A stretch of DNA of 64,000 nucleotides from Parietichytrium sp. I65-24A (taxonomy: Eukaryota; Sar; Bigyra; Thraustochytrida; Thraustochytriidae). Within the stretch, counting starts at the first letter, position 1; each line of letters opens with the position of its first letter. The stretch spans positions 62,001-126,000 of the forward strand of contig BLSF01000085.1 of NCBI GenBank assembly GCA_012862575.1. The letters are read 5' to 3'. Position numbers and translations under genes: made by a program. The notes under the pieces are model-generated. The model had not been told where the DNA came from. It saw nothing but the letters and a program-made list of their open reading frames with translations, and made no database searches. This document shows positions 4,457-33,813 of this stretch, in pieces.

Positions 4457-4876
4457 CGAGATGATCTTGGGAGTCGATAAGATTTCTGTGGAACATCAAG
4501 CGAAGAGGTATCGCGCGAAGCGAAGAGGCAGCCATGGACCACAGCACTCTTTTTTTTTTTTGGTATTTGTAGTCAGATCGGAGATTCCTTCATCCATTCA
4601 TGCGTAATTATGTACCGGTACAGTACTTGCCTCGTTCGTTGGCCCATGTTGGAGCTTTAAAAAAGGATTATCCTTTTCGTTGGCCTCTAAATTTTGAAAA
4701 TTCAATGACGAATGGCACAAATTAGTTGTTAACCTTTTCTGGCTTCTTTCTTTCTTATACATGTAATCTTATCTTTCATAGAGAATGTTGTCTGCGTGAG
4801 CCTTGGTCATCAGTTTTGACAAAAACAAAAGAAACAGAGGACCTCAAATCAAGACTCAAAACCAACATGAGGGCAG
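4457..4876. other. Convergent 3' spacer
   Basis: Spacer between two genes that converge. It is AT-rich, with a T-run near 4550 and a perfect 10-bp palindrome GTACCGGTAC at 4612-4621. No gene seen. Confidence 0.5.
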
Positions 4877-7800
4877 TTACAATAGCTGGGTGCCGTGGCG
4901 AAATGGCATCAAGTCGCGCTGCGCAGGAAGAACCTGAAGGAGCCATGGCGCTGGGCCGTCAACACTTATATGCTCCAGCGCAAGCTTGGCGTCTTGGTTG
5001 GCTGGATTTGCTTTCAAAGCGGCCTCGAAGCATTGCACAGAGCGCTTCCAGTCCCCTTCTTGAAATGCAGCCACCCCTAAATTGTTCCATGCGTTGCTTT
5101 CTTTCGGGAAGAGCGCAACACAGAGCTCGTACAACCTCTTGGCTGAAGCCGTGTTCCCCGCCTGTAAATAGGCGTTTCCGAGGTCAATGAGGGGCCCTGG
5201 GTAGCTCAGTGCCTTCTCAATTTTTGGCACTGGGAGGCTGTCAAGAATATCCCACACAGTCGGTCCGTACAAATTATTCGCAGCACTTGCGATATCAAAC
5301 TTTGGGTCGACGTAATCCGTCACTCGCATGAGTAGCACCCTTCTCAGCAATCGAATCGACTCAAAGTGCTGACCAGCTTCACTGTAGGACATGCCCAGGT
5401 CGCGGAGGGTTTCTGCGAGCTCCTCACGAAGCACTGCTACCTTGTGGTCAACAGTCCGAGAATACGCTTGCGCCGGCATCTCAAACAGCTCCTCAGTGGT
5501 AATCTCCTCAAAATTACGGATCTGGACCTGCAAACCCTTGATCGTCTCTCGCAGCAGTTCTACTGCTGCAGCCACCTTCCCGCGCAGCTTCAAAAGTCTC
5601 GCCATTTGGCGCTGAAGTGAGACGCGATTGAGCACAGAGGAAGCGTCTGGCACTGGCGATTTGAGAAGCGCGCCGATCTGCGCTGTCGCGGCTTCAAAGT
5701 TGCCTTGCTCTTCGTAAGCCAGAGCCAGGTTCAATCTCGCAGCGGACTTGCACTTTGCGTTATCCACGCTCACGACCCGGACTTGTTCACCTATAGTAGC
5801 AGGATGAATCGAATCGCACAGTGAGAGTACTGCACCAAGGTGCCTCACTGCGTTCTCTAGATCCCCGGCGCGATAGAGGGCGGCTCCTAGATTGTTGCGT
5901 ATCCCGACATGTTTCGGTTGCATTGCAAAGGCCTCCCCAAGCGCTCTTGCGGATGCTAGGAATGAGCCTTGATGAAACAAGAGACTGCCCATGGCGAAGT
6001 GAACCTGCCACTTTGTAACAGAGGCTATGGACGCGCCATACCGCTCCAAAACGTATTGGAGAACAGAGACCGCCATATCGGCCTCCCCTACGCGCTGCAA
6101 GGCTCCAGCGAATCGCACCAAAGTATCTCCAGAGAGCAGCTCACAACCGCTTTGTACATCCGCTGAAGACCGCAAGGCTTCGAAAGCGGACTTCCACTTT
6201 GCGATGGCCGCAGAACCCTCTCCTCGGCGCTGATGGACTTCAGCGATCACTGTATCGGCGCATGGGCATCTTGCCTTGCTTTCCAGCGAGTTGATCACAT
6301 CGACGGCCTGTTGAGGCTGCCCCAAAAGCAAGTGTGTTGCTGCAGACCCACAGACCCCCTGGCTCTGGACGTTGGACAACTCGACTTGCCTCAAGTTCTC
6401 GAAATGCATTAGAGCTAATTGTGCAAAAACAGCCTCCGAATTTCGCACTTTCCCCCGAGCCTCAAGTTGGGCGAGGCAGAGCTGACCGGCCTTGACTTCC
6501 GCTTCAAAGCTCCTTACCGGCGCCAGAACAGTTGCCCACCAGTGGTACACGGCTGCGCTTTTCCAATCCCTCATCTCTTGGTAAGAAATTGCGAGCCTTT
6601 CATACAACGCGCGGAGCTCTCTGGACACCGTGAGGCGCGACAAAGTCGCGGGGTTCCGGAATAAGTGGGGAATGACCAGAAGAGCGACTTCAGCACCCAC
6701 ATTTTTGGGCTTGACAAGGCCGAGGCCCAGCTCGAATCGGTCATTGGCAAGCTTGACCCCTTCACCTTCCTGCAAGGCCAGGTCGCCGAGAGCAAGGGCA
6801 AGCTCAGGATACCCGCCAACTTGCTCTGATTCGGGCAAGAGGCTCTCAATTATTTTCAGCATGTTCCTGGTGTCGCTCGACTTACAGCCAACCCGATCTG
6901 TGCACGAATCCACTCTCCATCTGACGAGTTTGGAGATGGCGGACATTTGAGCTCCTGAAGGGATATCTGCGAGCTGAACGCGAAAGAGCTCCAGCGTGGA
7001 CAGATCTGTCGGCTCTCCAACCCAAGCCTGGGCAAATCTCCCTGCTTCATCCATTTTAGCTTTCGAGGACAGGAGCGGGAACAACAGTTTCTTGTGCTCT
7101 TGTTCAGAGAAACTGGAAGACAAAAATGCTCGCAACAATTTGATAGCATCTTCATAGTGTCCAGCCCCTTCCAAGCGCTTCAAGGCAATCATTACAGCCT
7201 GTGCTGTTCCAGAGTTCCCCACCCGCATAAGCTCTGTCGCAACCTGCATGGAGATTTCCGCGGCATCAGACACTAGGTGGCTTCGTTCCAGAGCCTGAGC
7301 GTAGTACTGCAGATGCCAAAATCTGCTCGCAGTCCCCTCTTTTTGCAACAAAAGACACGCGCGCCAAAACTGGACACTAGTGTCACTTTGCTTGTCGTCG
7401 TGAAAGATTTTGCCCAGTCCACAGACACTTTTTGAAGCGAGATTTTTTGCATAAAGTTCAGACTCCCCGGACTCGAGGTTAGAAACGTTTTGAAGGCTCA
7501 TCAAACCTCCTACAAAGCAGTCAGAAGCATCTTGAGAGTTTCGGGCCTCATGATACAATGTTCCAAGCTCAACAAGAATACCAGCTTTGAGCAAACTCTC
7601 CTCCCGGAAACTTGGCCGCCACGGGCCCCCGTCACAAAGCAAATAATCATGGCATCGATCGAGCAAGTCCGTGCTTTCTGAACAGCATCTGGGTGCCGTT
7701 TCATTCGTCTTCAAGGCATCAAAGTAGCCCCTAGCAAGAGTGAAATATTCAATAGGAGAGGTGGGTGACAAGTGCTCTTGCGGTTGTGAGAGCGTAAAGA

Positions 7801-10800
7801 TGCCCGCCCTGAAGAAGGTGTCAGCCGCAGCCAAAGTGTTATTGGATCTCAAAAGCATACTCGCCTCCACGAAGCAATTGCCAGCTCGCATCGTCTCGCT
7901 CCTGCGCTCATATTCCACTCCAAGAGCATGGAATGCCGCAGCCGAATTCGGATATTGAGAGGTTGCTTCCACCAGCAGCGCGAGCCGCTGCCCGGCATCA
8001 GCATCGTGAGTGGTCTCTTTTGGGGGCTCTAAAAGATATGCAGCCCATAGCATAACTTCAAGGCGCCTTGGGTGTTGCGGAGGAATCTCACGCAAGGCAT
8101 CTAATGCCATGTCGCCTGCCTTTCTCTGATCCGCAGTCCTGACGAGCAGTGACCACTCGAAAAGCGCTAAGGCGCTAAAAGTGTCATGCTTGAGATGCAC
8201 CACCTGCTCGAAGCAATCTGCGGCTTGCTGGACCTGACCACGAGCAGCAAACATACCGGCAATTTGCAACAGGCTCCCAGGCTCGTTAAGAATGATATTT
8301 GGCATCGAAGTCTCCTTTGCTCTGCGACACGTTGTGCCACGGTAGAGTGTTGAGCTGTTGCTCTTTCGAAGTTGGCGCGGATCAGCCAAGCCGTGCTCGC
8401 CGCCTTGGGGGCTCGCGGAGATCTCCCCCTTCTCTTGAGCAATTCTGGCCTGAGGAAACTCGAGAGCTTGTTCCTCTAAATCAGCCACTGTATCTTCAGG
8501 AGAACGAGAGCGATCCGCCAAGATAGATCGGGCAATATCGTGATGAGTGCGAGCCGACGTGGGTTCTCCATGGGCGGATAGCAAAAGTGCAAGCGACTGA
8601 TGCACAGATGCGTCCTGAGGGTCCAAATTTGCAGCGATCTGCAGATGCTGAATAGCGCTTTGCGCATCACCGCTCCGGAGATATATCGCTGCGATGCTCA
8701 TCTCGCTCATTGCAGCAAATTTTGCCGCACTGCTTCCTGGCGCCGATGCTGAGTTCGAAGAAAGCACGATCACCGTTTGGAACGTCTCCAGTGCGGCATC
8801 CGTGCGGTCTAATTCCAACATCGCCTGGGCCATGTGAAAGAGATTTTCAAGAGAATGCTTGTCTAACACATATGCATTCGTAAAGCTCTCCAGGGCCTTG
8901 TGAGCACGCCCTTTACGAAGCAGAGCTTTTCCGAGCTCTGTATGACAAGTCACGCACTGAGGAGTCAAAGTTGCAGAAGTGCGGAACAAAGCGATTACAG
9001 TGTCCAAATCTTCCGGGTTTTGTAGAAGAGAGATTCGGCCCAGCTCAAAGTGCAATTCTGCAGACCTCGGCCACTGTTCCACTCCAACACGCAAAATTCT
9101 TTGAGCAAGCCGGAGGTCCTGCACGCTAACCTTTGCGGAGCGCAGCAGTAGAGATGTGACTGTCTTGAACGTCCGCAGCTCTAAAAATCCATCGTCAATG
9201 GCAGCAACGTAATGCCTTAGTGCCTCTGCTCTGTCTTCACCCTTGGCCTCCATGAGGGTATCAGCGAGCCTGGCTCGAGCTTCCGGACCAGCCCCATGCT
9301 CCAAAGCCTGCTCGAAAGCACGCCGGGCCGTCGGCCAGTGCCGGAGGCTGTACAGCGCATTTCCCCGCATGACGTACAGATCTCCAAGATCAAGAATGTC
9401 TAGGTCAATTGCTCTTTTGATGAGCGGGAGGGCTTCTTCTGACCTTCCGAGCGAGAGTAGAGCGCTGGCTGTATAATTAAGAACACGCGATAGATGCGCG
9501 TTGATCCTGTGACAGTCGCGCTCGCACGAAACGGAGAACTCTTCTAGCGTGCGCCACGCAAGATCGTATTGCCCAATGGCTTCCGAAGGTTTGGAAACGT
9601 GCATCAGAATATCCCCGACCAAAACTCGGGACGCAACATGATTAGGATCAATTTCCAGAGACCTTTTCCCGCGACTAAGAGCCTCTTCCGCACGCTTGTC
9701 TTGGTAAAGAGTGTTCGCAAGCTGATAATGGGCCTCCACCAAATTATCGTTTAGCCAAGTTGCTTGCTGGAAATGGGAGATGGCTTCGCTTAACAGTCGG
9801 TCAGTCACGCTTGTGTCTGAGGCCCTCCCATACTTTGCCAAGATGATTGCTCGAAAGCGGAGCACTTTTCCGAGCTCAATGTGTACCTGAGGTGCCTCCG
9901 GCCAAAGCTCCACTGCCTTTCGAAGGTATTTCGACGCTAGGTCCCATTCCTGCCTCTCAGAGAGCAAGGATCCGACCCTAATGTACACGTAAAGGTCCTG
10001 GCAGCCAAGCCGAATCGCGGTGCCAAAGTGGTGCAGGAGGTGCTCGGTGAGGAAAAACGCGCTTTCGTCACCGGCCTCATCAGGTGCCGACGCCAGCAGT
10101 CTTCCGCTCCACCGTTCGTCAAGCGCCCTCATGATGAGACTCCAAGGAAGCTCAGAAACGGCCGGCCTCGAGAGGTTCGGCCTTAGGGCCAAGAGCCTAA
10201 GCTCGAAAGATTGACCGAGCCCACGATGACCTTCCATGCTCTGGGGAAGGATGTCTATGAGCCGTGAGAAATAGCCCTGGGCTGCGACTGGTTTCCCGAG
10301 CTCCAGCGCGAGTGCGCCAGCCCTCTGTAGCAAAAGCGCTAAAGACCTGAGGTCTGCAGCCAGAAAGTGACAGGTTAGGGCCCCCTCTGACAGTATTTTG
10401 TGATATTGGCCAAGTGCCCGCTCTTTGTCCTGAAGTCTCTCCAGTGCTACGGCTTTCAGACAGGCGATGGAAGCCACCCTTTGCGCAATCCCTTGGCGAT
10501 GTTGGCTGGAATAGCTCATCACGGAGAGCGCCTGCTGCGTAAACTTGAGCGTCTGGCTCCACTTTTGCGCTGTGGCAGCCACCAATGCCGCGTTCCACTC
10601 TTTGGAAGCGCCTTTGAGGCGATCTTGCAAAGTAATAATCTGATGCATCTCGTGCATCACGTTCCCCTCCCTTTCGCTACCGCTCGGAGATCCTAATAAA
10701 TCCTCTTGCAACAACTGCAGTGTGGCTCCTGCCCGGCCAATCTCTTCTGCAAACAACCCCAGTTCGCAGACCCTGCACATCTCTTCCAGCACCATTGCAT

Positions 10801-10942
10801 CGCCCATTCTCATTCTGCTCCCACTCTCTTCTGCTGCGCCATATCTCTTCACGCCATTCGCTCCAGCGAATACGGCCAACACTGTCGCAAACACCAATGC
10901 GCACCTCCCCACACGTGCGCTGCTCAAGTACATGGCACGCAT
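4877..10942 (-). CDS. Very large secretory TPR-repeat protein
   Basis: One uninterrupted frame of 2,021 residues. The N-terminus (two close Met codons, then CALVFATVLAVFAGANG) is a good signal peptide, so the protein should enter the ER. Most of the rest is tetratricopeptide repeats, with the W-L-G-Y-A-F-A-P spacing clear in many places (for example near 340-460, 520-560, 640-720, 780-820, 1670-1760 and 1930-2000). I see no catalytic domain, no transmembrane segment after the signal and no ER-retention tail (the C-terminus is HGTQLL). TPR proteins hold multiprotein complexes or peptide ligands; a lumenal or secreted one of this size is unusual. Two Met codons are possible starts (10942 and 10933); both keep the signal peptide. 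Coding is certain from length; the partner and role are unknown. Confidence 0.9.
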   Translation of the reverse strand: MRAMYLSSARVGRCALVFATVLAVFAGANGVKRYGAAEESGSRMRMGDAMVLEEMCRVCELGLFAEEIGRAGATLQLLQEDLLGSPSGSEREGNVMHEMHQIITLQDRLKGASKEWNAALVAATAQKWSQTLKFTQQALSVMSYSSQHRQGIAQRVASIACLKAVALERLQDKERALGQYHKILSEGALTCHFLAADLRSLALLLQRAGALALELGKPVAAQGYFSRLIDILPQSMEGHRGLGQSFELRLLALRPNLSRPAVSELPWSLIMRALDERWSGRLLASAPDEAGDESAFFLTEHLLHHFGTAIRLGCQDLYVYIRVGSLLSERQEWDLASKYLRKAVELWPEAPQVHIELGKVLRFRAIILAKYGRASDTSVTDRLLSEAISHFQQATWLNDNLVEAHYQLANTLYQDKRAEEALSRGKRSLEIDPNHVASRVLVGDILMHVSKPSEAIGQYDLAWRTLEEFSVSCERDCHRINAHLSRVLNYTASALLSLGRSEEALPLIKRAIDLDILDLGDLYVMRGNALYSLRHWPTARRAFEQALEHGAGPEARARLADTLMEAKGEDRAEALRHYVAAIDDGFLELRTFKTVTSLLLRSAKVSVQDLRLAQRILRVGVEQWPRSAELHFELGRISLLQNPEDLDTVIALFRTSATLTPQCVTCHTELGKALLRKGRAHKALESFTNAYVLDKHSLENLFHMAQAMLELDRTDAALETFQTVIVLSSNSASAPGSSAAKFAAMSEMSIAAIYLRSGDAQSAIQHLQIAANLDPQDASVHQSLALLLSAHGEPTSARTHHDIARSILADRSRSPEDTVADLEEQALEFPQARIAQEKGEISASPQGGEHGLADPRQLRKSNSSTLYRGTTCRRAKETSMPNIILNEPGSLLQIAGMFAARGQVQQAADCFEQVVHLKHDTFSALALFEWSLLVRTADQRKAGDMALDALREIPPQHPRRLEVMLWAAYLLEPPKETTHDADAGQRLALLVEATSQYPNSAAAFHALGVEYERRSETMRAGNCFVEASMLLRSNNTLAAADTFFRAGIFTLSQPQEHLSPTSPIEYFTLARGYFDALKTNETAPRCCSESTDLLDRCHDYLLCDGGPWRPSFREESLLKAGILVELGTLYHEARNSQDASDCFVGGLMSLQNVSNLESGESELYAKNLASKSVCGLGKIFHDDKQSDTSVQFWRACLLLQKEGTASRFWHLQYYAQALERSHLVSDAAEISMQVATELMRVGNSGTAQAVMIALKRLEGAGHYEDAIKLLRAFLSSSFSEQEHKKLLFPLLSSKAKMDEAGRFAQAWVGEPTDLSTLELFRVQLADIPSGAQMSAISKLVRWRVDSCTDRVGCKSSDTRNMLKIIESLLPESEQVGGYPELALALGDLALQEGEGVKLANDRFELGLGLVKPKNVGAEVALLVIPHLFRNPATLSRLTVSRELRALYERLAISYQEMRDWKSAAVYHWWATVLAPVRSFEAEVKAGQLCLAQLEARGKVRNSEAVFAQLALMHFENLRQVELSNVQSQGVCGSAATHLLLGQPQQAVDVINSLESKARCPCADTVIAEVHQRRGEGSAAIAKWKSAFEALRSSADVQSGCELLSGDTLVRFAGALQRVGEADMAVSVLQYVLERYGASIASVTKWQVHFAMGSLLFHQGSFLASARALGEAFAMQPKHVGIRNNLGAALYRAGDLENAVRHLGAVLSLCDSIHPATIGEQVRVVSVDNAKCKSAARLNLALAYEEQGNFEAATAQIGALLKSPVPDASSVLNRVSLQRQMARLLKLRGKVAAAVELLRETIKGLQVQIRNFEEITTEELFEMPAQAYSRTVDHKVAVLREELAETLRDLGMSYSEAGQHFESIRLLRRVLLMRVTDYVDPKFDIASAANNLYGPTVWDILDSLPVPKIEKALSYPGPLIDLGNAYLQAGNTASAKRLYELCVALFPKESNAWNNLGVAAFQEGDWKRSVQCFEAALKANPANQDAKLALEHISVDGPAPWLLQVLPAQRDLMPFRHGTQLL

Positions 10943-12526
10943 TTCTCTCCTTCGTGCATCACTTTCCTACTGACTGTAAGTGAGTGAGTGACTGCTAGAT
11001 TGTTCAATTTTGCCGACGCCGAGGACAGTTTCGCCGAGGTGGCGGTGTCCGCGCGGACACTCTTCCTGTTTGTTCCCTCACAGCGTGTGTGCAATGTGCA
11101 ATGTGCAAGTGTGGGGGGTGGGTTGGCTCGCTCCGCAGCTGGAGATGTCTCGCAGGGAGGAGAAGGAAGGGGAGGTGGGTGAGAGGCGCTTTCCCTCAAG
11201 TCCCCTCAAGTGTCCTCGGAGAATTGGGCCGATTTGGACCGCAGTTTGGTTGCTGCTCTCTTTGGACTCTCTCTGTGTTGTGGCCAAGTTCCACTTTCTG
11301 GCTAACGTTTATGGTAGTCACGAGTAGCACCCTGGGGGAGTCCTCACAGTGGAGTTGACGCAGGTGAGTAGGAGTCGGATATGATAGACTAAGGTCCCGG
11401 TGATTCTGTTCGCGCTTGAGTCTGCGCTATCTCAACTAGCGGTTTCGTTAGCCAAAATGGGTAAGGGTCTTATGGATGTCGTACGGGCTTAGGCGTGGGA
11501 CTGGTGTTATTAGGCGTTTCCGGTAGGCCATTTGTGGTCTTTGCGAGCTTTGGTTTCAACAGGTAGTTAGAGGATCGGATAGTGGGGAGACTAAGAAGTT
11601 TAAAAAGCTGTGTTCGGGGATACTATGGTCCGCTTGGGCGAAACAAGAGGACTCAAACAAATGATTCGTTTTGCCTTGTTGTCTCAATTTTAAAAATCTA
11701 ACTATGTCTTTTCTAAAGGTTCACCGTCTCCACCCAAAGCTGCCACAAATGATCTCAAGTTAAACTTTACAAATTTTAACTTTTAAATTTGACGCACTGT
11801 GTCTTTCATAGAAACGCGAAGGGAATCGAGAATTTACTTTGAAGACTCAAAGTCATGGTTGTTTCACAGTCAATCAAAAGTCAACTTCATGATGTGCTCG
11901 AGTAGCGAATCTTATCACGTATACTCGTTTCAGAACCAAGCAATCCAAAAGCCAAAAACGCGTCCCACTAGCATCATCTAAATAGCGTATAAGGTGACTC
12001 AAATTTTCGATTTTGAAACGTATGCACAGTTGGGAATAGGCACTCCTAAAGCATCATCGTATTCAAGTGGCTAGCCTAGCTCTATCTCGACATCGGTAGT
12101 AGCCATTAAGCACGTTGGAGCCGTTCTGCTGTTACCGGACTGGGGAGATTGAGAGAATGTTGGGAATCTCATACAAGACTACGACCTCAAACTATCTACC
12201 ACAACATGTAGCAGCACGCTGAAGCCAAGCCGCAGAAAAAGACTAGAAGCACATACGGCTCCAACAGCGTAAACCTTAGCGAGCGACTAGGACAGCGGCG
12301 AAGGGAAACTTGGGAAACCAGGCTTCGTTTCCTTGTTCCTTTTGTTCCCTCGTGGGACCCAATTAGACTTTTGCGTAGCAGTTGGCGCGTTTGGAACGAC
12401 CCAGCGTGCTCCGGCGTGCTGCGGCGGTGGGAGCACGCGGTGAAAGGTGACCAGACCACACAGAGAAGCGTTGGAGCGCGAAAGGTGTAAAGTGTAAAGT
12501 GGGAAAGTGGGAAAGTTGAAGATAAG
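10943..12526. other. Divergent promoter spacer, 1.6 kb
   Basis: Lies between the heads of the TPR gene (minus) and the PI synthase gene (plus), so it should hold both promoters. Just upstream of the TPR start the minus strand reads ACTCACTCACTTACAG, which looks like a 3' splice site of a leader intron. The middle (11,300-12,150) is AT-rich and shows no coding frame, tRNA or repeat. Near 12,485-12,520 aaagtg-type short repeats precede the PI synthase ATG. Confidence 0.5.
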
Positions 12527-14444: not shown

Positions 14445-15249
14445 ATCTTTGTAGGATAAAATACCCAGTACCGGTACCAGTCAGTTTTGCCTTTAATGTT
14501 TATTTTTGAAACTTTCACTTTGGCCATGTTGTTGAGGCACTCCTCTGAAGATGAAGGATGAGACGGGTTGCCGAACTTTTATGTTCTCCTCGCGCAAGAA
14601 GTAGGACAAAGTCCTTTGCTTCGCTCCTTTCCACGGAACCGTCTCACAAAAGAGGCAGAGAACTCCTCCAATTCTTTCCGTCTTCGATGTCTTGATGTCT
14701 TTTTTCGACCATCATCTCCTGTTCTGCATTCTGTTCGTCAACAAACACCACTTAACGTTATTAATAGTGTAGCGGGACAACTCTGGCCGGTCGTATAGCA
14801 CTCTCATTTTACGTTGCACATTCGTTAGTGCTCAGTACTCAGTACCCATACAGTACACATGGGATTGCAAGATCATGATGGATGTACCGGTAACGTTGTG
14901 CTTGCAATCCCGAAACAGCAGAACAGTAGAAGAGCAGAACAGCAGAGCAAAGGACGTTGGAGCTTGCAAGGGCGCTCTGGTGCTCTGGTCCAGTCGTGAC
15001 ACCTGCTCGCACATCTCACATCTCACATCTCACATCTTGCGTCTTGCATATTCCCATCTCACATCTCACATCTTGCGTCTTGCATATTCCCATCTCGCGT
15101 CTTGCGACTCAGTTTCAACGGCCTGTATCTCGCTCGCCTCAGACGCAGCGCGCACTTGCCGTTGTGTGACAATCTGCGCAGGACCGAAGCGCGGAGTGAG
15201 CACTCTTTGTGGGATTTTGTGGTGCATCGATCGAAAAGTCATCTGAAGA
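14445..15249. other. Spacer and promoter of the tyrosinase-fusion gene
   Basis: No gene seen. It contains palindrome-like boxes (GTACCGGTAC at 14,468-14,477, a variant at 14,884-14,893, CTCAGTACTCAGTAC at 14,831-14,845) and the 36-bp tandem repeat listed separately. Confidence 0.5.
15023..15106. repeat. 36-bp tandem repeat upstream of the tyrosinase-fusion gene
   Basis: Two perfect 36-bp copies (15,023-15,058 and 15,059-15,094) and a 12-bp partial third. The unit is made of cacatct and cttgcgtcttgcata blocks. The array ends about 145 bp before the ATG, so it lies in the promoter or leader. Confidence 0.9.
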
Positions 15250-18200
15250 ATGGGCGCTGGCGCGTCGTCTGCGGCAGGGCAGGTGGAGGAGATCGAGCAG
15301 ATCGAGGGTCTGCCCGATGGGATCAGAGGCAAAGTCCTGGCCCAGCTCGAGAAGTTTCTGGTGGACGTGACCAAAACGCATGCGCTTGGGGATGCACAGG
15401 TGACGGTGTATCACGCGGCGAACCTTCCGAAACTAGACACCAGGAGTGAGAGCGACCCATACGTGGCGATCTCGCTCACGAGAGACGGTACGAGGCAAGC
15501 TGGTGCGCAGATTGCCCACACTACAAAGATCCGCAACAACGCATTCCCAGTTTGGGGCAAAGGTGGCGCGGGAGAAACAATCAGCGTGGGGCCGGCTACT
15601 GGAGATGACACCATTCGTCTCGAAGTATTCGACTCAGATCGTGTTGAGCCTGATCCCACCGGGACCATCGATGACTTGATTGGCGCCGCATTGCTTCCTC
15701 TCAAGGATCATCTGGGAAGCCACGGCAGAAAGGTTACCGTGGATCTCAAGCTCGGCGAGGCGTCGTCTACTAGCAACGGCACCGTCACGATCTCGTACAA
15801 CCGCACTGTTGACCTCCCCGCGATCGATGCTGGGGCATCGGTTAAGGATACCATTCTCGCGTACTTTGTTTTGCTGCCTGAAGATTCAGACACAAGTCGC
15901 ATCCGCAGCAATTGCCTGGAAACCTTGAAAGCAGTGTTGCATTGCTTCCAAGCTCGCGTCGCTGCTGGAGAGCACGTCGCGCAAGTCGTTGCAAGTATCT
16001 TTGAAAAGCTCACGAGTAAAGACGAGACAATCTTTCACAGCTTTTACAATGCTGTGAGCTCCGGCGGTCTAGAGCAGATCGTGGAGCAGTTTCAGCCACC
16101 TGCCGAAGTGGAGCAAAAAGTCGACCCCAGCTCGTCACCAGCTAAAACCATCCCCGAGCTGGTGGTTCGACGGGAAATTCGCACAATGAGCGACGAAGAT
16201 CAACTCCGATTTGTGAACGCTGTCAAGAAGTCAATGGAAAGTGAAGAGCAGGGCAAGTCGGAGTGGCTGAGAATTGCAGGGTATCACGGGTGGCCAAGTA
16301 ACGACGGGCAGGGCTATTGCGTTCATCGAGCCGAAGCTTTTCCTGGCTGGCACCGCGGGTACCTGGTGGAGCTGGAAAACGCACTAAGAGAGGCGGACAA
16401 GGCCCTGGGCAATGATGGCATGATTGGTGTTCCGTACTGGGACTTTAGCATTTATGAGCTGAATGGCCAAGTCATGCCGAAACTGATCCGAGAGCACTTC
16501 ACGGAAGGGTTCAAGTTCCCCGACAACTTCTTCCCAGAAGACTCTGAGCTTATGGGCCATCCCGGGGTGAGCACCTTTGTGGATGTGGGTTTTTCCAAGG
16601 TCAGCTCTGACAGCGTTTTGCTTAGAAAAATGGAGAGGAACAACCTTGCGCAAAGGTCCGCAGACTGCCTTGATTTCTTCGCCAACGCGGAGCATTGGCA
16701 ACATGCCTCCACGGAAAATAAGGCAAGCGAGCCTGTGGAATCGCCGCACAATTCCGCGCACGTCTGTCTTGGTTTCCCGTTGACATCGTTAAAATTCGCG
16801 GCGTTCCACCCAATGTTTTGGCTGCTGCACTGCAATGCGGACAGGCAATACGAGAAATACCTAGAGCTTGCCGGACGAACCGCGTGCCTCAACGACATAA
16901 TCAAACATCAAGCGATGAGGGAAGAGCAAGGATATCCGAACCTACACCGCCAGGATTGTGAGCCATTCCCGAGAACGGCCCACCTAGACAAAATAAATCC
17001 TGACTTGAAAGGTCGCGGCTTCACGATGGCGGATGCGCTGCAAGAGCTTCACAACCTTGGCTACACCTACGATAAACTCCCTCCACAGCCGAAGCAGCAA
17101 ATGCGGGAGCTTCCAAACTACGTGCTCTTCAAAGACGTTGACGTGGCTACCAAGCTCATGGGTGCAGACGGCGTGATGAAGAGTTTCGACATGCACATCT
17201 TCCTCGCAAAGAAGGGCGATCAAGACGTGCTCCGGAGCGAGCTGTCAGCTGCGCTTGACAGCGGTTCGATGGAGAGCATCTTTGATGGTCATGATCGTTA
17301 TGCTGGAATTGTGTCAATCTTTGGTGGCAAAGGGCCCAAGTGCGATAATTGCAAAGTGAATCGAACGATCAATGCCAAGATAGAGATCAATGACACGTTG
17401 TTTAAGATGGGCAACTTGAGTCGATTTGACGTTGATCTTCTCGTTATAGCAGAAGATGAGGTGGGTGCTATGGTATGGTTCGAGGACATTCAATCCAAGT
17501 TTCATTCGGGGATCGAGATCCCTTCCCCCGTGCTCACTGGGCCAACGTTCGAAAAGTCTTCACCGGAGCTCGCCAAGGTGGACACCCAGGTCTCACCTCA
17601 GCTTGCTGAAGAGACGCGGGAAATTCAGTCAATTTTGGCTCGCCAAGGGTTTTATGACGGAAAGGTTGACGGTGAATTCGGACCAAAAACTGAGTCGGCG
17701 GTGAAGGCGTTCCAAGCCTATGCAGGGGTCCGCGACGATGGTATCGTGGGTCCAGTGACCAAGTCTGTTTTTCTTCAGCCACGATACGATGGTTCTCGCG
17801 ATGTGCAGGAGGAGGCGTCCTCTGCCACGCTCTCGTTTTCGAAGGGCCAGTCGATAACGTATTGGGTCGGAACTGAGCCTGGATATCTTGATCGCGGCGA
17901 GGTGTTGGAGGAAATCAAGCTTGCAATTTCGCAGTGGGAATCCGCTGGAGTGGTGACATTCAAGCAAGTAGACAACAAGGAGGATGCCGATGTGCGCATT
18001 CAGTGGAGCGACCACACCCAAGACAATGCCAGGCTTTTCGACGGAGTCGGAGGGGAAATCGCTCGCGCAGACGCGAAGGGCGTCACACTGGATGTTGCAG
18101 AGTGCTGGTCTACGAAGCCAAAACATTCGAATCCTCGAGCGTTTCGCTTGATGCCCGTCATTCTACACGAAATTGGCCATGTACTTGGACTTGAACACAC

Positions 18201-18297
18201 GAGTGATGCGAGCCGCGTGTTGTATCCATACTACATGGAAGGGAGGCAAGTGCTCACGGACTCTGACAAGACAGCGCTCCAGACTCTGTATGGCTGA
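15250..18297 (+). CDS. C2 - tyrosinase - peptidoglycan-binding - matrixin fusion protein
   Basis: A 1,015-residue, single-exon fusion. The start MGAGASSA fits N-myristoylation (Gly2, Ser6) and there is no signal peptide. A C2 domain (about 45-185; SDPYVAISL, FDSD) should bind membrane lipid. A type-3 copper (tyrosinase) domain follows, about 315-600, with CuA ligands His346, His359, His368 and CuB ligands His500, His504, His527 (HNSAH and FWLLHCNADR), so phenol or catechol oxidation is plausible. Residues about 785-842 form a PG_binding_1 domain (QGFYDGKVDGEFGPKT), as in matrix metalloproteases. The last 155 residues are a matrixin-type M10 protease with HEIGHVLGLEH (His973, Glu974, His977, His983). 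The expected cysteine switch PRCGxPD is replaced by PRYDGSRD. I know of no described protein with this architecture. The domain calls are firm; substrates and location are inferred. Confidence 0.93.
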   Translation: MGAGASSAAGQVEEIEQIEGLPDGIRGKVLAQLEKFLVDVTKTHALGDAQVTVYHAANLPKLDTRSESDPYVAISLTRDGTRQAGAQIAHTTKIRNNAFPVWGKGGAGETISVGPATGDDTIRLEVFDSDRVEPDPTGTIDDLIGAALLPLKDHLGSHGRKVTVDLKLGEASSTSNGTVTISYNRTVDLPAIDAGASVKDTILAYFVLLPEDSDTSRIRSNCLETLKAVLHCFQARVAAGEHVAQVVASIFEKLTSKDETIFHSFYNAVSSGGLEQIVEQFQPPAEVEQKVDPSSSPAKTIPELVVRREIRTMSDEDQLRFVNAVKKSMESEEQGKSEWLRIAGYHGWPSNDGQGYCVHRAEAFPGWHRGYLVELENALREADKALGNDGMIGVPYWDFSIYELNGQVMPKLIREHFTEGFKFPDNFFPEDSELMGHPGVSTFVDVGFSKVSSDSVLLRKMERNNLAQRSADCLDFFANAEHWQHASTENKASEPVESPHNSAHVCLGFPLTSLKFAAFHPMFWLLHCNADRQYEKYLELAGRTACLNDIIKHQAMREEQGYPNLHRQDCEPFPRTAHLDKINPDLKGRGFTMADALQELHNLGYTYDKLPPQPKQQMRELPNYVLFKDVDVATKLMGADGVMKSFDMHIFLAKKGDQDVLRSELSAALDSGSMESIFDGHDRYAGIVSIFGGKGPKCDNCKVNRTINAKIEINDTLFKMGNLSRFDVDLLVIAEDEVGAMVWFEDIQSKFHSGIEIPSPVLTGPTFEKSSPELAKVDTQVSPQLAEETREIQSILARQGFYDGKVDGEFGPKTESAVKAFQAYAGVRDDGIVGPVTKSVFLQPRYDGSRDVQEEASSATLSFSKGQSITYWVGTEPGYLDRGEVLEEIKLAISQWESAGVVTFKQVDNKEDADVRIQWSDHTQDNARLFDGVGGEIARADAKGVTLDVAECWSTKPKHSNPRAFRLMPVILHEIGHVLGLEHTSDASRVLYPYYMEGRQVLTDSDKTALQTLYG

Positions 18298-27198: not shown

Positions 27199-27667
27199 CT
27201 TCCCAGATGCGTCCTACCAAGTGATTCGCCAAGCCTTTATATATAATTCGCGTCAAACTCCGCCGACTTGAGTTAATTGGACTCTCCACTGTGGCACGTG
27301 CCTCCGCCAGCGTCTCCCACACGTTCCAACACTCACAAACATTACGCAATTACATGCAATTACGCAAACTACGCACCACAAAATCCGGGCAGCACTCATC
27401 GCGTCACAAAAGTCACTCTTTTGACGCAGAGTCGCGACATATTGCGCACGAATCGCGTCACTTGGAGACACATGCCACGCGGCGATCGCAGCGAACATGG
27501 AACGGGTCCCTGCGCTTATGGTTCAATTAGTTTTGAGATAAGGTAATTTTCCATTTGTTGTTCACAGTCAATTGTGTTCACCAGGTGAAAAGTATGAAAG
27601 ATTTGGAATTTGGAAGATTTGGAAGAGTTGGAAGCGAAAAGGTGGGCGCATTGGAAGGGTTGCAAGT
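27199..27667. other. Short divergent promoter
   Basis: Spacer between two head-to-head genes. A TATA-like tatataattcg lies near 27,240, about 40 bp outside the minus-strand ATG; gatttggaa-type short repeats lie near 27,599-27,635. No gene seen. Confidence 0.4.
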
Positions 27668-29644
27668 ATGGAAGCTGTGAGAAGATGGCAACAGCGACTG
27701 GAAAGAGCGTCGTGGAAGGCGCTGACCGAAGATGATGCGTTGAAAGCTGTGTCGAATTTCGTTTCCATGGAGAAAGTCAGCGTCGCGAAAACCGAGGCGG
27801 TCTCGGACGACCTTTTCATTGTGCAGTGGAACGACTCTACTGGCGCTCAGAGAACGTTTTGCGTGAAGCAAGCAGCGGCGGGCGAATCGGCTGATTTGGA
27901 TTGTGAGTATCTGGCGCTTGAACTCTGGCGCGAATTTGTGCCCTGCAGCGTGCAGAACGTGCTTGGAATGAGCGAGGGGAGGTCACATATTGTCGTGGAG
28001 GAGCCTGAAGAATTCGTAGCATTGCCTGTGCTGATCTTCGCTAAAGACAAGGTTGTGGATGTGGTGGGCGCAGAGGTAGGGGCCAAGCTCGCCACGATGG
28101 CGTTTCGCACAAGCGTTTTCGGGATGAACTCTGCCGACCGAAGCATTTTAGTGCAAGCATTCGAGCAGAATCGAAAAAGCGCTGAATCGATAGAGGTGTC
28201 GTTGTTTCAGCAAGTTCTTCAAGCCGCCAATGCAGAGCAAGAGATTGACAAGGATCTTTTGGTTGCGCTGGAAGAGCTGACTTGCAACCCTTCTTTTGTT
28301 CGTCGTTCAGCGGAGTTGCGCCACAAGTTCTCGTCTTGCAAAAATTCATTACTTCATGGCAACCTCTGCACCGACAGTGTGCTGGCAAACTCAGCGGGAG
28401 AGGTTTGCATTCGCAATCTAGAAGGCGCTCTCATGGGCCCCATCGGCTTTGATCTCGGAATTTTTACGGCGCATTTGATTTTCACAGCCCTACAGCTTGA
28501 GGACCCGGAGGATGCCAAGAGACCACTCACGTGCATGTGCGATCTGTGGCAAGGGTTTCGGACCACCTTTTCGTATTTGTTCGCCCTGGAGAAGCAATCT
28601 TTGCAAGACAGAGCAAGCACCACAAGAACCAGCTTCTTCTTTCAAGAAGGCGAGGCAGAGTCTTGCAGTATTATCTCGGACACAATAGGAGAGGTCTGGA
28701 AGGACACAATAGGTTTTGCTGCTTTTGAGCTCATCAGAATCGCGCTGAGTTATGCTGAGTCGTTCAAGATAACTAATGGTGCGATAGAGCTACATAAAAG
28801 GCTTTTGATGCTGGAAATTGCATCAGAAATGCTTCTTCGTATGTCAAGGTATTCGACCGATATCTCTGTATCAAATTTGGTGGAGTCCAGGTTAGCCGGC
28901 AGCCAGATCCGGCCCAGGGCTCGCCTCTACATGTTTGCGAAGATGCCAAAACTAGGGAAATCTAAAACGCGACTTGCGGCTAAAATAGGCAATGAGCGCG
29001 CTCTCTCGTTTGCAGAAAGCTGCCTCTTGGATCTCTTGGAGCGTTTCGGGGGAGAGACGGACTGCAGCCTACAGGTCGATGTGGAGCGGGTGATCCTTTT
29101 TGTTCCGGATTCAGATCTACAAGAATACAAGTTGATGCTGGAGGCGAAGCTCCCAGAGGCACTCCGTTGGTGGAAAATGCACGGACTTTCCACAGCCCTG
29201 ATGGGTTCCAATTTGGGTACGGCCTTGTCGTCAGCGTATGACATTGCCAGGGAGGAAGGGTGCTCATCAGTCGGCTTTATCGGAATGGACACCCCTGACC
29301 TTGAGCCAAGGGAGGTTTTTGAGCAGCTAGCACGATGCTCCCACTCAGATGTTCACAGTTGCTTGTTTCCTGCCGAAGACGGTGGCTATGTGTTCTTGGG
29401 TTTGCCGTGCCACAAGCGCTTCGGTGCAACACAATTTTTTGACAAGGTCCGATGGTCCGAGAGCTGCACCTTTGCAACTCAAGCGCGAGCTCTTTTGAAA
29501 TGCCAACTGCACCTCGATATCGGGCCAGTGTACGCGGACATCGATGATGAGGAGGGCATGCTCAAGTTCCTCTCGAGACTTGAACGAGACTCGGACCTTG
29601 CACATGCTCTTCCGCGATTGTACTCATTTTCCTGTGAGCCGTGA
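27668..29644 (+). CDS. Methylthioribose-kinase-like domain fused to a DUF2064 glycosyltransferase-like domain
   Basis: 658 residues from the first in-frame ATG. The N-terminal part (about 1-400) follows the methylthioribose kinase fold: LLHGNLCTDS (230-237) stands where MTR kinase has HGDLHTGS, and NLEGALMGPIGFDLG (250-264) where it has DPEFAFYGPMGFDIG. In both motifs the key Asp (catalytic; metal-binding) is Asn, so kinase activity is doubtful; the Glu of the second motif is kept. The C-terminal part (about 417-640) is a DUF2064/TIGR04282 domain of the GT-A fold: ARLYMFAKMPKLGKSKTRLA, GFIGMDTPDLEP and PAEDGGYVFLGL, where the DxPDL and EDGGY motifs should bind metal and nucleotide sugar. I know of no description of this fusion. 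Domain calls are good for the C-terminal half and moderate for the N-terminal half. Confidence 0.8.
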   Translation: MEAVRRWQQRLERASWKALTEDDALKAVSNFVSMEKVSVAKTEAVSDDLFIVQWNDSTGAQRTFCVKQAAAGESADLDCEYLALELWREFVPCSVQNVLGMSEGRSHIVVEEPEEFVALPVLIFAKDKVVDVVGAEVGAKLATMAFRTSVFGMNSADRSILVQAFEQNRKSAESIEVSLFQQVLQAANAEQEIDKDLLVALEELTCNPSFVRRSAELRHKFSSCKNSLLHGNLCTDSVLANSAGEVCIRNLEGALMGPIGFDLGIFTAHLIFTALQLEDPEDAKRPLTCMCDLWQGFRTTFSYLFALEKQSLQDRASTTRTSFFFQEGEAESCSIISDTIGEVWKDTIGFAAFELIRIALSYAESFKITNGAIELHKRLLMLEIASEMLLRMSRYSTDISVSNLVESRLAGSQIRPRARLYMFAKMPKLGKSKTRLAAKIGNERALSFAESCLLDLLERFGGETDCSLQVDVERVILFVPDSDLQEYKLMLEAKLPEALRWWKMHGLSTALMGSNLGTALSSAYDIAREEGCSSVGFIGMDTPDLEPREVFEQLARCSHSDVHSCLFPAEDGGYVFLGLPCHKRFGATQFFDKVRWSESCTFATQARALLKCQLHLDIGPVYADIDDEEGMLKFLSRLERDSDLAHALPRLYSFSCEP

Positions 29645-31254: not shown

Positions 31255-33813
31255 ATGACGCGACAGCAGGTGGTAGTGGAGGATGCGGCTTATGATACAG
31301 AGGACGAGAAGCGCGGGCGGTCCCGCAGTTCCTCCATACCCGGAAAAGAGCGAGCCAAGAAGAAAGTGTGGTCCATCTTGATGATCAGCGCGGACCCAAC
31401 GACCCATCACAAACTCAAGCTTCAGGCGGAAGAGCGTGCAATCAGAAAGAGCCTAGGGATGGCCCGAGACAGCGTGGAGATCAAACTGGACGTCCTTCCC
31501 GCCGCAACGATCGATGACGTAGCTGAGTGCTTGCTGAGGAAGTCGGCATCAGGCTCGGCGTATGACATTGTCCATTTCTCTGGGCATTGTGATCAGCACC
31601 ACCACATGGTGCAGCTAATCTTTTCGGAGCTAGAGAAGCAGCACGGAAAAGATGTTGTCAGTCGCTTCAAAGCCAGCCACGATGCGACACGAGGAATTCA
31701 TGAGCTTGCCGTCCAGGTGTCAAAGCATCTCGAGCTTCAGGCCGGGTGCTATATGGACGAATTGTACTACGGCGAGGAGGACGGCGACTTCGAGATGCAC
31801 GATGGCTGTCAGCAGCCAGAGAAAGAGGAGTTTCCGGAGCAAAGCGAAGAGGTGCGCAAGGAAGACCAAGAGAGTGAGTCTCCGCAGGATGAGAGCACGA
31901 ACTGTGCCAGCGAGTCGTCTGTGACAACGGCGGAGAGGTCAGAGGCTGACAAGGGTCGAAAGGATTCCGACGGAGAGACTATCACGATGGAGGAGACCAA
32001 GGAAATCTCGGACGAGGAGGTTGGTGAAACGGATTCTGATCAGCGTGCCTTCCGCTGGGACTCCTTTCGCACGCCTCGAAAGCTACAGCGCAGTGCGAGT
32101 TTTGACAATATTAGTATCGAAGTGGACGCGAGGGGAGCATGGGAAGGAGAAGGGCGCAGAGGGCGTTCCTTCTCTCGCGGCACACGCGAACAAGGAGCGT
32201 CGCGCTCCTTATCCCCTACATTCCGGGTTCATATGAGGAGAAAGGCAGGTACAGCACCGGCAGGCGAAGATCAAAGTCCTAGCGAGCAAACGGAAGATCG
32301 CGGTCGGGCGGGAGAGGAGGAGGCCAGGGTTGAGGAGCAGCAATTATTGGTGTTTACTCACGATGCCGCTTCCTCGGCCGCACACAATGAAGGACCCTTG
32401 CACTTTCCAAACGACCAAGACTCTCTCGTCCTTCGACTGCCAGATGTGATATCTAGAACCTTTCAGCCAGGGCTTGGACTGTTTCCCGACCACTCAGACG
32501 ACGAAGAAGTGGTTCCGACAAAAGACATTGTGCTCACGAAGCAGCAGATTCTGGATGCTGGCGTGGGGTCTTTGGCTTTTGAGACCGGGACGGGTTCAGG
32601 AATGAATTTTGTCGGGGCCAAAGCGTTCGCTGCGATGATCTCGCCCTACGCACTCGACACTGGCTGCGTCTTGCTGAATGCGTGCAACTCTCAGCTGACG
32701 TGCGAGCAGATTCTCTCGGTTGGAATCCCTTTTGCAATATGCAGCCGGGGACGTATGAGCGATAAATCTGCACTCCACTTTTCACAAGGATTCTACGAAG
32801 CAATTGCATTTGGTCATGGGATCGAGCGTGCGTTCTTGGAGGGGCAGAGCAGAATCTCCGTGCACAGCCACAAGGTTGCTCGCCACGCCGCCGGACCTAC
32901 TGCCATTGTACCTGGGACGGGTATTCCGTTTGGGGTCTCGGGATTGGAGGATGGAGAGAATCAAGTGTGTCTGATGCGCGCAAACGGCCGCATGGTTTTG
33001 GAGCCGGTGAGCGTGCGCCAGCACGTTCACATTTCCAGTGAAAATACTCGTCTCAAGAGCGTCATCCACGAAGGTGTCAAGATATTGTCTGAAAAGGACA
33101 AGGAAATCGAAGCCTTAAAAGCCAAAATTGCAAAGATGGAGGCAGAAGCCAGTACCCAGCCGAAAACGCCAGGTCCGAAACGTGACGGACTTCGCCGCAC
33201 AAGCAGCTCGAGGCTGAAACCCGGCTCAAGTGAGAAATCACAGCCCCGCCTCCGCACACAGCGAAAACGCCAAGAAGAACAGCCTGGAAACTCGCAAAGC
33301 CGGTCGCGTACCGAAGGAGCGTCCGGCCCAGCGCAGTTCAGGCGAAGAACGCCGTCCCCATCTGCCTCGCGTGTTCAGAGCGAAACCGATTCGAAGCCTC
33401 TGCCTCCATGGATTCCCTCGGGGTCTGGAGGCGACTCACACCGCCATTCGCACCTCCAGAGTGCCACTCCGTCCGTTTCACCATCACCGTCTTCAGGGAT
33501 GTCAGCGCAAGGAGCCGCTTCCTCGAGCCCGAGCGGAAACAACAAGGAGAACTATGTTCGTGTCACCGTCAATGGTAAACAGCACAAGTCATCAGGCGGT
33601 GGGAATAGAAGCAAGTCTACTACTGTATTTACAACCTCGGAGTCTTCCTCCGGCCCTCATACGCAATCGACCAACGGTGCACTTCACGAACATCATGGCA
33701 ACGCGATCCATCCGCAGCCCAAACTAAGTGGGTTCGGCTCTAGCGTTCCTCGTTTTTCCGCGAGTACACTTGTGAACCCTACACGGTACGAGACGATGTC
33801 GCCCCGGAGTTGA
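31255..33813 (+). CDS. CHAT-domain (caspase-like) protein with a long insert between His and Cys
   Basis: 852 residues, one exon. The N-terminal part after a basic leader, WSILMISADP, LKLQAEERAIRKSL, then YDIVHFSGHCD, is the start of a CHAT (clan CD) protease domain with catalytic His111. The domain resumes only near residue 425 (GSLAFETG, FVGAKAFAAMISPY) and reaches the Cys477 motif CVLLNACNS and GIPFAICSRGRMSDKSALHFSQGFYEAIAFG, which is typical of CHAT. About 310 residues between them are acidic, Ser/Arg-rich and mostly disordered. After the domain come a short coiled coil (about 590-630, KDKEIEALKAKIAKMEAEA) and a Ser/Pro/Arg-rich tail. CHAT proteins include separase relatives and bacterial immune and gasdermin-activating proteases; the target here is unknown. 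No partner gene adjoins it. Confidence 0.87.
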   Translation: MTRQQVVVEDAAYDTEDEKRGRSRSSSIPGKERAKKKVWSILMISADPTTHHKLKLQAEERAIRKSLGMARDSVEIKLDVLPAATIDDVAECLLRKSASGSAYDIVHFSGHCDQHHHMVQLIFSELEKQHGKDVVSRFKASHDATRGIHELAVQVSKHLELQAGCYMDELYYGEEDGDFEMHDGCQQPEKEEFPEQSEEVRKEDQESESPQDESTNCASESSVTTAERSEADKGRKDSDGETITMEETKEISDEEVGETDSDQRAFRWDSFRTPRKLQRSASFDNISIEVDARGAWEGEGRRGRSFSRGTREQGASRSLSPTFRVHMRRKAGTAPAGEDQSPSEQTEDRGRAGEEEARVEEQQLLVFTHDAASSAAHNEGPLHFPNDQDSLVLRLPDVISRTFQPGLGLFPDHSDDEEVVPTKDIVLTKQQILDAGVGSLAFETGTGSGMNFVGAKAFAAMISPYALDTGCVLLNACNSQLTCEQILSVGIPFAICSRGRMSDKSALHFSQGFYEAIAFGHGIERAFLEGQSRISVHSHKVARHAAGPTAIVPGTGIPFGVSGLEDGENQVCLMRANGRMVLEPVSVRQHVHISSENTRLKSVIHEGVKILSEKDKEIEALKAKIAKMEAEASTQPKTPGPKRDGLRRTSSSRLKPGSSEKSQPRLRTQRKRQEEQPGNSQSRSRTEGASGPAQFRRRTPSPSASRVQSETDSKPLPPWIPSGSGGDSHRHSHLQSATPSVSPSPSSGMSAQGAASSSPSGNNKENYVRVTVNGKQHKSSGGGNRSKSTTVFTTSESSSGPHTQSTNGALHEHHGNAIHPQPKLSGFGSSVPRFSASTLVNPTRYETMSPRS

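Follow-up and report, generated by a model that had tools for sequence, protein, structure and literature searches.

Fungal pro-tyrosinases such as A. oryzae MelB and A. bisporus PPO4 have six copper-binding histidines, a Cys-x-His arrangement, and a domain behind the catalytic core with a CxxC motif, and in the excerpted literature they mostly lack a signal sequence. For PPO4, the excerpted report places the CXXC in a lid whose removal activates the enzyme, and gives the origin of the protease that removes it as unknown (PMC4157443). What activates tyrosinases outside insects is called elusive in an excerpt of a 2024 review (PMC11608171) and widely unknown in part of another source (PMC6563526). 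Here we describe a gene of the thraustochytrid Parietichytrium sp. I65-24A, located at positions 15250-18297 of a 64,000-nucleotide stretch of contig BLSF01000085.1 (hereafter the window), whose predicted product joins a C2 domain, a tyrosinase, a PG_binding_1 domain, and a matrixin metalloprotease in one chain. The gene and all its features below lie on the plus strand. The protein shares the features of the fungal pro-tyrosinases listed above. To our knowledge, those are single enzymes without a C2 domain, myristoylation motif, or fused protease, unlike the window protein.

Mollusc hemocyanins are oxygen carriers of many tandem units. Their functional units share the C-x-H arrangement with the core of the window protein, which differs in having one unit within a multidomain protein. 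The matrixins, or matrix metalloproteinases (MMPs; family M10), including those encoded on Paenibacillus plasmids with a PG_binding_1 domain, share the order of PG_binding_1 and then Peptidase_M10 with the HExxHxxGxxH motif. Unlike them, the window protein has lost the cysteine switch, two structural-zinc histidines, and the Met-turn methionine, and its matrixin sits behind a tyrosinase. The insect prophenoloxidase cascade and apple MdPPO1 share with the model proposed below a latent phenol oxidase that is activated by cleavage. In contrast to this model, insect phenol oxidases are activated by a serine proteinase cascade, and MdPPO1 self-cleaves via a linker peptide with no external protease needed, as stated in an excerpt of the source (PMC6563526). 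A natural tyrosinase-protease fusion would offer a directly testable case for the in vivo cleavage of pro-tyrosinases outside insects.

Domain organization and metal sites

The open reading frame (ORF) comprises 1015 uninterrupted codons with no internal stop. The predicted product is a single chain that carries a C2 domain of the Ca2+ type, all dicopper ligands, and the catalytic zinc motif, and both metal sites are likely catalytic. In a Pfam scan of the whole 1015-residue protein, four domains scored above the curated cut-offs. The C2 domain covers residues 49-157 (15394-15720; E=1.5e-10, 41.7 bits against a cut-off of 22), and the tyrosinase match (PF00264) covers residues 337-537 (E=2.2e-25, 90.7 bits against 22.6). 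PG_binding_1 follows at residues 787-838 (17608-17763; E=7e-16), in the pro-domain position of matrixins, and Peptidase_M10 (PF00413) at residues 867-1015 (17848-18294; E=6.5e-28, 98 bits against 24). Residues 158-304 (15721-16161), between the C2 domain and the tyrosinase core, gave no family match over the cut-off when residues 181-317 were scanned. The initial annotation had placed the six copper histidines and HExxHxxGxxH in one uninterrupted frame and had read C2, tyrosinase, PG_binding_1, and matrixin in one chain; both statements hold. The architecture is confirmed at the level of sequence and is unusual, a variant of known enzyme families.

The tyrosinase or mollusc-hemocyanin-like core spans residues ~305-611 (16162-17082) by the Pfam match and alignments. 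Its copper ligands were assigned from motifs and from alignments with hemocyanins and with a tyrosinase of Rhizobium (L017), and all six histidines are present. The CuA site (16285-16353) contains H346, H359, and H368, and C357-V-H359 matches the Cys-His thioether arrangement. The CuB site (16747-16830, motif HPMFWLLHCNAD) contains H500, H504, and H527, with Asn501 directly after the first CuB histidine. Among solved structures, mollusc hemocyanins are nearest to the core in sequence (8trz, E=4e-73 as a sum over repeats). A profile built from the window protein and L017 matches latent PPO4 (5m6b_B) over the core with E=4e-23, and its best stretches against fungal tyrosinases, among the matches listed, also fall in the core. 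At the other end of the protein, the catalytic zinc site HEIGHVLGLEH (residues 973-983, 18166-18198) keeps the motif intact as H973-E974-x-x-H977-x-x-G980-x-x-H983, and the nearest solved structures for the C-terminus by sequence are karilysin, MMP-1, and MMP-14.

Proposed self-maturation of the tyrosinase

We propose that the protein is a cytosolic, membrane-attached bifunctional enzyme whose matrixin would mature the latent tyrosinase of its own chain, giving a self-maturing oxidase, and we put the probability of this reading at roughly one in three. N-myristoylation and the C2 domain would bring the protein to membranes upon a rise in Ca2+. The tyrosinase would be made latent, with the post-core domain (~612-765) covering the active site and its CxxC assisting copper loading in the manner of the fungal pro-tyrosinases. 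The C-terminal matrixin, which lacks the latency cysteine, would cut the chain around the lid in cis or in trans and thereby free an active, quinone-producing tyrosinase, which may serve in a wound or defence response or in local cross-linking. The strict version, in which an unlatched matrixin brought to membranes by myristoyl-C2 under Ca2+ acts in cis and removes the lid, is less probable still, and unlikely. If this strict version is true, the protein would condense a prophenoloxidase cascade into one polypeptide in a microbial eukaryote, and its matrixin would be a dedicated activator identified for a tyrosinase from outside the insects. More generally, a tethered protease would meet a recognized need, as the literature cited above calls the non-insect activator elusive or widely unknown.

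The lid is proposed from position and motif. The post-core domain comprises the 154 residues 612-765 (17083-17544) and contains one CxxC, C698-D-N-C701 (17341-17352), with F691 (17320-17322) seven residues before it. In a two-sequence alignment, the CxxC and a phenylalanine of the Rhizobium tyrosinase L017 stand in columns corresponding to those of the window protein. In a five-sequence alignment, the L017 CxxC moves by at least one residue in register, and the other three sequences have no CxxC there. No CxxC occurs anywhere in six tyrosinases from viral contigs.

Several observations weigh against self-maturation. The CuB signature of tyrosinases is DPxF..H...D; the window protein keeps the ligand histidine and has His520 in place of the first aspartate, so that it departs from this pattern. 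The post-core domain reaches only E=0.091 with Tyrosinase_C (PF18132; 13.8 bits, below the cut-off of 26.9), and searched alone against solved structures it gave no match up to E=10. Its homology to the corresponding part of L017 is not significant, as 56 of 300 shuffles reach the pairwise score, and among the seven tyrosinases compared L017 is the only one with a CxxC after the core. The pairwise score was nominally high for one of these seven, L018 (6 of 300 shuffles), but L018 has no CxxC. In the matrixin, Leu991 (18220-18222) replaces the methionine of the Met-turn, giving VLYP for MYP, and R939 and T946 stand at two of the structural-zinc histidine positions; since these residues are missing, the protease might be weak or dead. 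Matrixins in the cytosol are also unusual, and an upstream exon may add a signal peptide.

State of the matrixin

The departures within the matrixin bear on the most probable alternative, which is unlikely in our view: the matrixin would be a weak or dead module for binding or stability, and the protein a membrane-attached tyrosinase. Besides R939, T946, and the Met-turn leucine, the lost cysteine switch and a loop shorter than in the matrixins L015, L016, and L021 are consistent with this reading. On the other hand, the three zinc histidines, the glutamate, and the glycine of HExxHxxGxxH are intact, and the family score stands far above its cut-off (98 bits against 24).

The matrixin comparators came from six loci, of which one (L022) is a piece without the pro-domain and another (L023) was left out. 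Among the aligned matrixins, L022 and L024 likewise lack the two structural-zinc histidines, and the Met-turn of L016 falls in a gap. The departures of the window protein thus occur in other matrixins as well, and loss of the structural-zinc histidines alone is not unusual. The cysteine switch of MMPs has the pattern PRCGxxD. Its Arg-Cys-Gly is kept in all four aligned bacterial or viral matrixins with a PG_binding_1 domain (L015, L016, L021, and L024), and the window protein reads PRYDGSRD, with QPRC-GVPDV of MMP-1 aligning to QPRYDGSRDV (residues 843-852, 17776-17805), a degenerate switch without cysteine. It is possible that Asp847 stands in for the lost cysteine. If the prediction holds, this would be a matrixin without a cysteine latch that acts inside the cell.

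We also considered peptidoglycan binding as the function of the PG_binding_1 domain and rejected it. PG_binding_1 directly precedes Peptidase_M10 in the four scanned bacterial or viral matrixins (4/4; the same four loci), so the domain is uninformative on wall binding. One of them, on a viral contig (L021, 2944-4152), keeps the switch cysteine and continues into three ChW repeats (PF07538).

A second alternative treats the chain as a polyprotein: the matrixin would cut the linker at residues ~766-786 (17545-17607) and free itself, and the two enzymes would then work apart. The linker, placed by inference between the proposed lid and PG_binding_1, has no domain match in the Pfam scan, which suits such a cut, as does the missing cysteine latch. 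The single-chain architecture, however, would then serve co-expression only, and we regard this explanation as distinctly unlikely.

Predicted cellular location

Attachment to membranes from the cytosolic side is the simplest interpretation and likelier than secretion. By hydropathy, no signal peptide-like or transmembrane segment was found; the maximum mean over 19 residues is 1.3 overall and 0.37 near the N-terminus. N-myristoylation motifs have the N-terminal pattern MGxxxS/T, and the protein starts with MGAGASS (15250-15270), which fits it, so that the modification is predicted. The C2 domain keeps aspartates of the Ca2+ type in its loops SDPY (residues 68-71) and VFDSD (residues 126-130), and aligns weakly to the C2 domains of synaptotagmin and PKC (best E=2e-5). 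The absence of a signal peptide-like segment, the MGAGASS start, and the Ca2+-type aspartates together make a cytosolic, membrane-attached enzyme likelier than a secreted one.

The initial annotation had instead suggested a secreted or surface enzyme that combines cross-linking by phenol oxidation with proteolytic remodelling of a wall or matrix polymer. Both enzyme families do have secreted members, and the protein contains five N-x-S/T sequons. Nevertheless, the hydropathy result, a myristoylation motif at the very start, and a Ca2+-type C2 domain at the N-terminus all oppose secretion, and C2 domains usually lie on the cytosolic face of membranes. We consider this explanation decidedly improbable. 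Nor does its premise of usual tyrosinase secretion hold in general: fungal polyphenol oxidases rarely have a signal sequence and most of them are cytosolic, according to the excerpted 2024 review (PMC11608171). Part of a study of type-3 copper proteins also describes a cytosolic beta subclass, with a conserved aromatic residue above the active site (PMC3658974).

Integrity of the reading frame

The fusion of C2, tyrosinase, and matrixin in a single chain is very probably real, judging from the frame itself. An open frame this long has a chance probability of ~2e-20 at the base composition of the ORF, and a TGA stop lies two codons 5' of its ATG. The GC content at third codon positions (GC3) is even along the ORF, at 0.54-0.71 in all 19 windows (19/19). 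We scanned for introns as a GT[AG]AG[TCG] donor followed 40-260 nucleotides downstream by a pyrimidine-rich YAG acceptor, and found no such consensus pair inside the ORF. The scan recovered the intron of the adjoining acyl-CoA synthetase-like gene, which served as a positive control (n=1). We take the fusion as real because of the missing intron pair, the even GC3, and the low chance probability of such a length. An artefact, whether two genes, a missed intron, or an assembly join, is favored by the single copy in a single genome and is very improbable given 1015 open codons with even GC3, no intron consensus inside, and one reading frame shared by both halves.

A tandem repeat with a 36-base unit (2.2 copies, 100% match) lies at positions 15019-15096, immediately 5' of the ORF in what is presumably its promoter or 5' untranslated region.

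Relatives in the genome and beyond

The source genome comprises 42.5 Mb in 172 contigs. In searches of this genome, one matrixin match, one PG_binding_1 match, and one tyrosinase match scored over the cut-off, all in this ORF, and the C2 region gave no further match. The first-look filter of the profile search can miss members, and it passed over another frame in this genome, divergent and tyrosinase-like, that a protein search found (L002, 1-1938, minus strand; PF00264, 38 bits for the whole frame). This frame has hydrophobic segments after its HNxxH motif, as seen by eye. No donor of the PG_binding_1-matrixin half was seen within the genome, where the search gave one scored match for each domain, in the ORF. 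A bacterial origin of this half is possible.

The same C2-tyrosinase-PG_binding_1-matrixin architecture was not found in viral or genome contigs, phages, or plasmids, with this genome as the sole eukaryote covered. Whole-protein scans gave no relatives among 37 candidate stretches of viral contigs and two among 82 candidate stretches of genome contigs, both through PG_binding_1 only. These scans would miss distant relatives, because their six query peptides were not picked for conservation. With tblastn, none of 68 phage records and none of 39 plasmid records reached 80% query coverage. Among the matches listed (20 each), either the tyrosinase part or the PG_binding_1/matrixin part was matched, never both. 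Among the matches listed in the open-licence literature of PubMed Central, there was no report of a tyrosinase-matrixin fusion.

Protease genes beside bacterial tyrosinases

We inspected the genes within ~7 kb to either side of the match at 12 plasmid loci with bacterial tyrosinase relatives. The loci were drawn from 32 distinct tyrosinase-matching records among the matches listed, avoiding near-identical records; left out were Streptomyces, two unannotated records, and several records from rhizobia, Paracoccus, and Burkholderia. Counting every listed feature except the 12 tyrosinases used as queries and a second tyrosinase gave 139 neighbor genes. Annotated endopeptidases account for seven of these, in six of the 12 loci, compared with none of 103 genes in four 40-kb control stretches from four of the same plasmids (one-sided Fisher p=0.019). 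Without the two loci that prompted the test, 5 of 115 genes in 4 of 10 loci are endopeptidases (p=0.039).

M4 endopeptidases occur near the tyrosinase at L033, L035, and L039. At L034 a trypsin-like protease gene lies four bases downstream of the tyrosinase, at L037 an S8 protease occurs twice with a transposase in between, and at L043 an S8 protease occurs once, two genes from the second tyrosinase gene. The remaining loci (L036, L038, L040, L041, L042, and L044) have no annotated endopeptidase. An Xaa-Pro peptidase and an M20 enzyme at L041 and DJ-1/PfpI proteins at L040 and L043 were excluded from the count.

The enrichment is a lead, because the set is small and phylogenetically clumped. 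What also limits its support for self-maturation is that the loci are partly related, that genes were classed by annotation after viewing, that all four control plasmids carry a protease-positive locus, and that one control stretch has 4 genes. The plasmid proteases are possibly activators of the neighboring tyrosinases.

The stretches in which tyrosinase and protease genes lie near each other include 4640-8371 at L033, 6605-9071 at L034, 6911-12833 at L035, and 6347-11637 at L039. One plasmid M4 gene is followed by a gene for the protealysin inhibitor emfourin.

Neighboring genes in the window

Three other plus-strand frames of the window are recorded here. The frame at 27572-29644 encodes 690 residues; its DUF2064 match lies towards the C-terminus, and the long N-terminal portion matches no family at E 0.01. 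The frame at 31255-33813 encodes 852 residues with a CHAT-domain match (PF12770, E=1.4e-6) and has a long tail, apparently of low complexity when viewed by eye. At 421-1911, a papain-family cysteine protease (PF00112, E=3e-51) continues, as judged by eye, into a hydrophobic segment and then a tail at the C-terminus, and its product is perhaps a membrane-anchored cathepsin.

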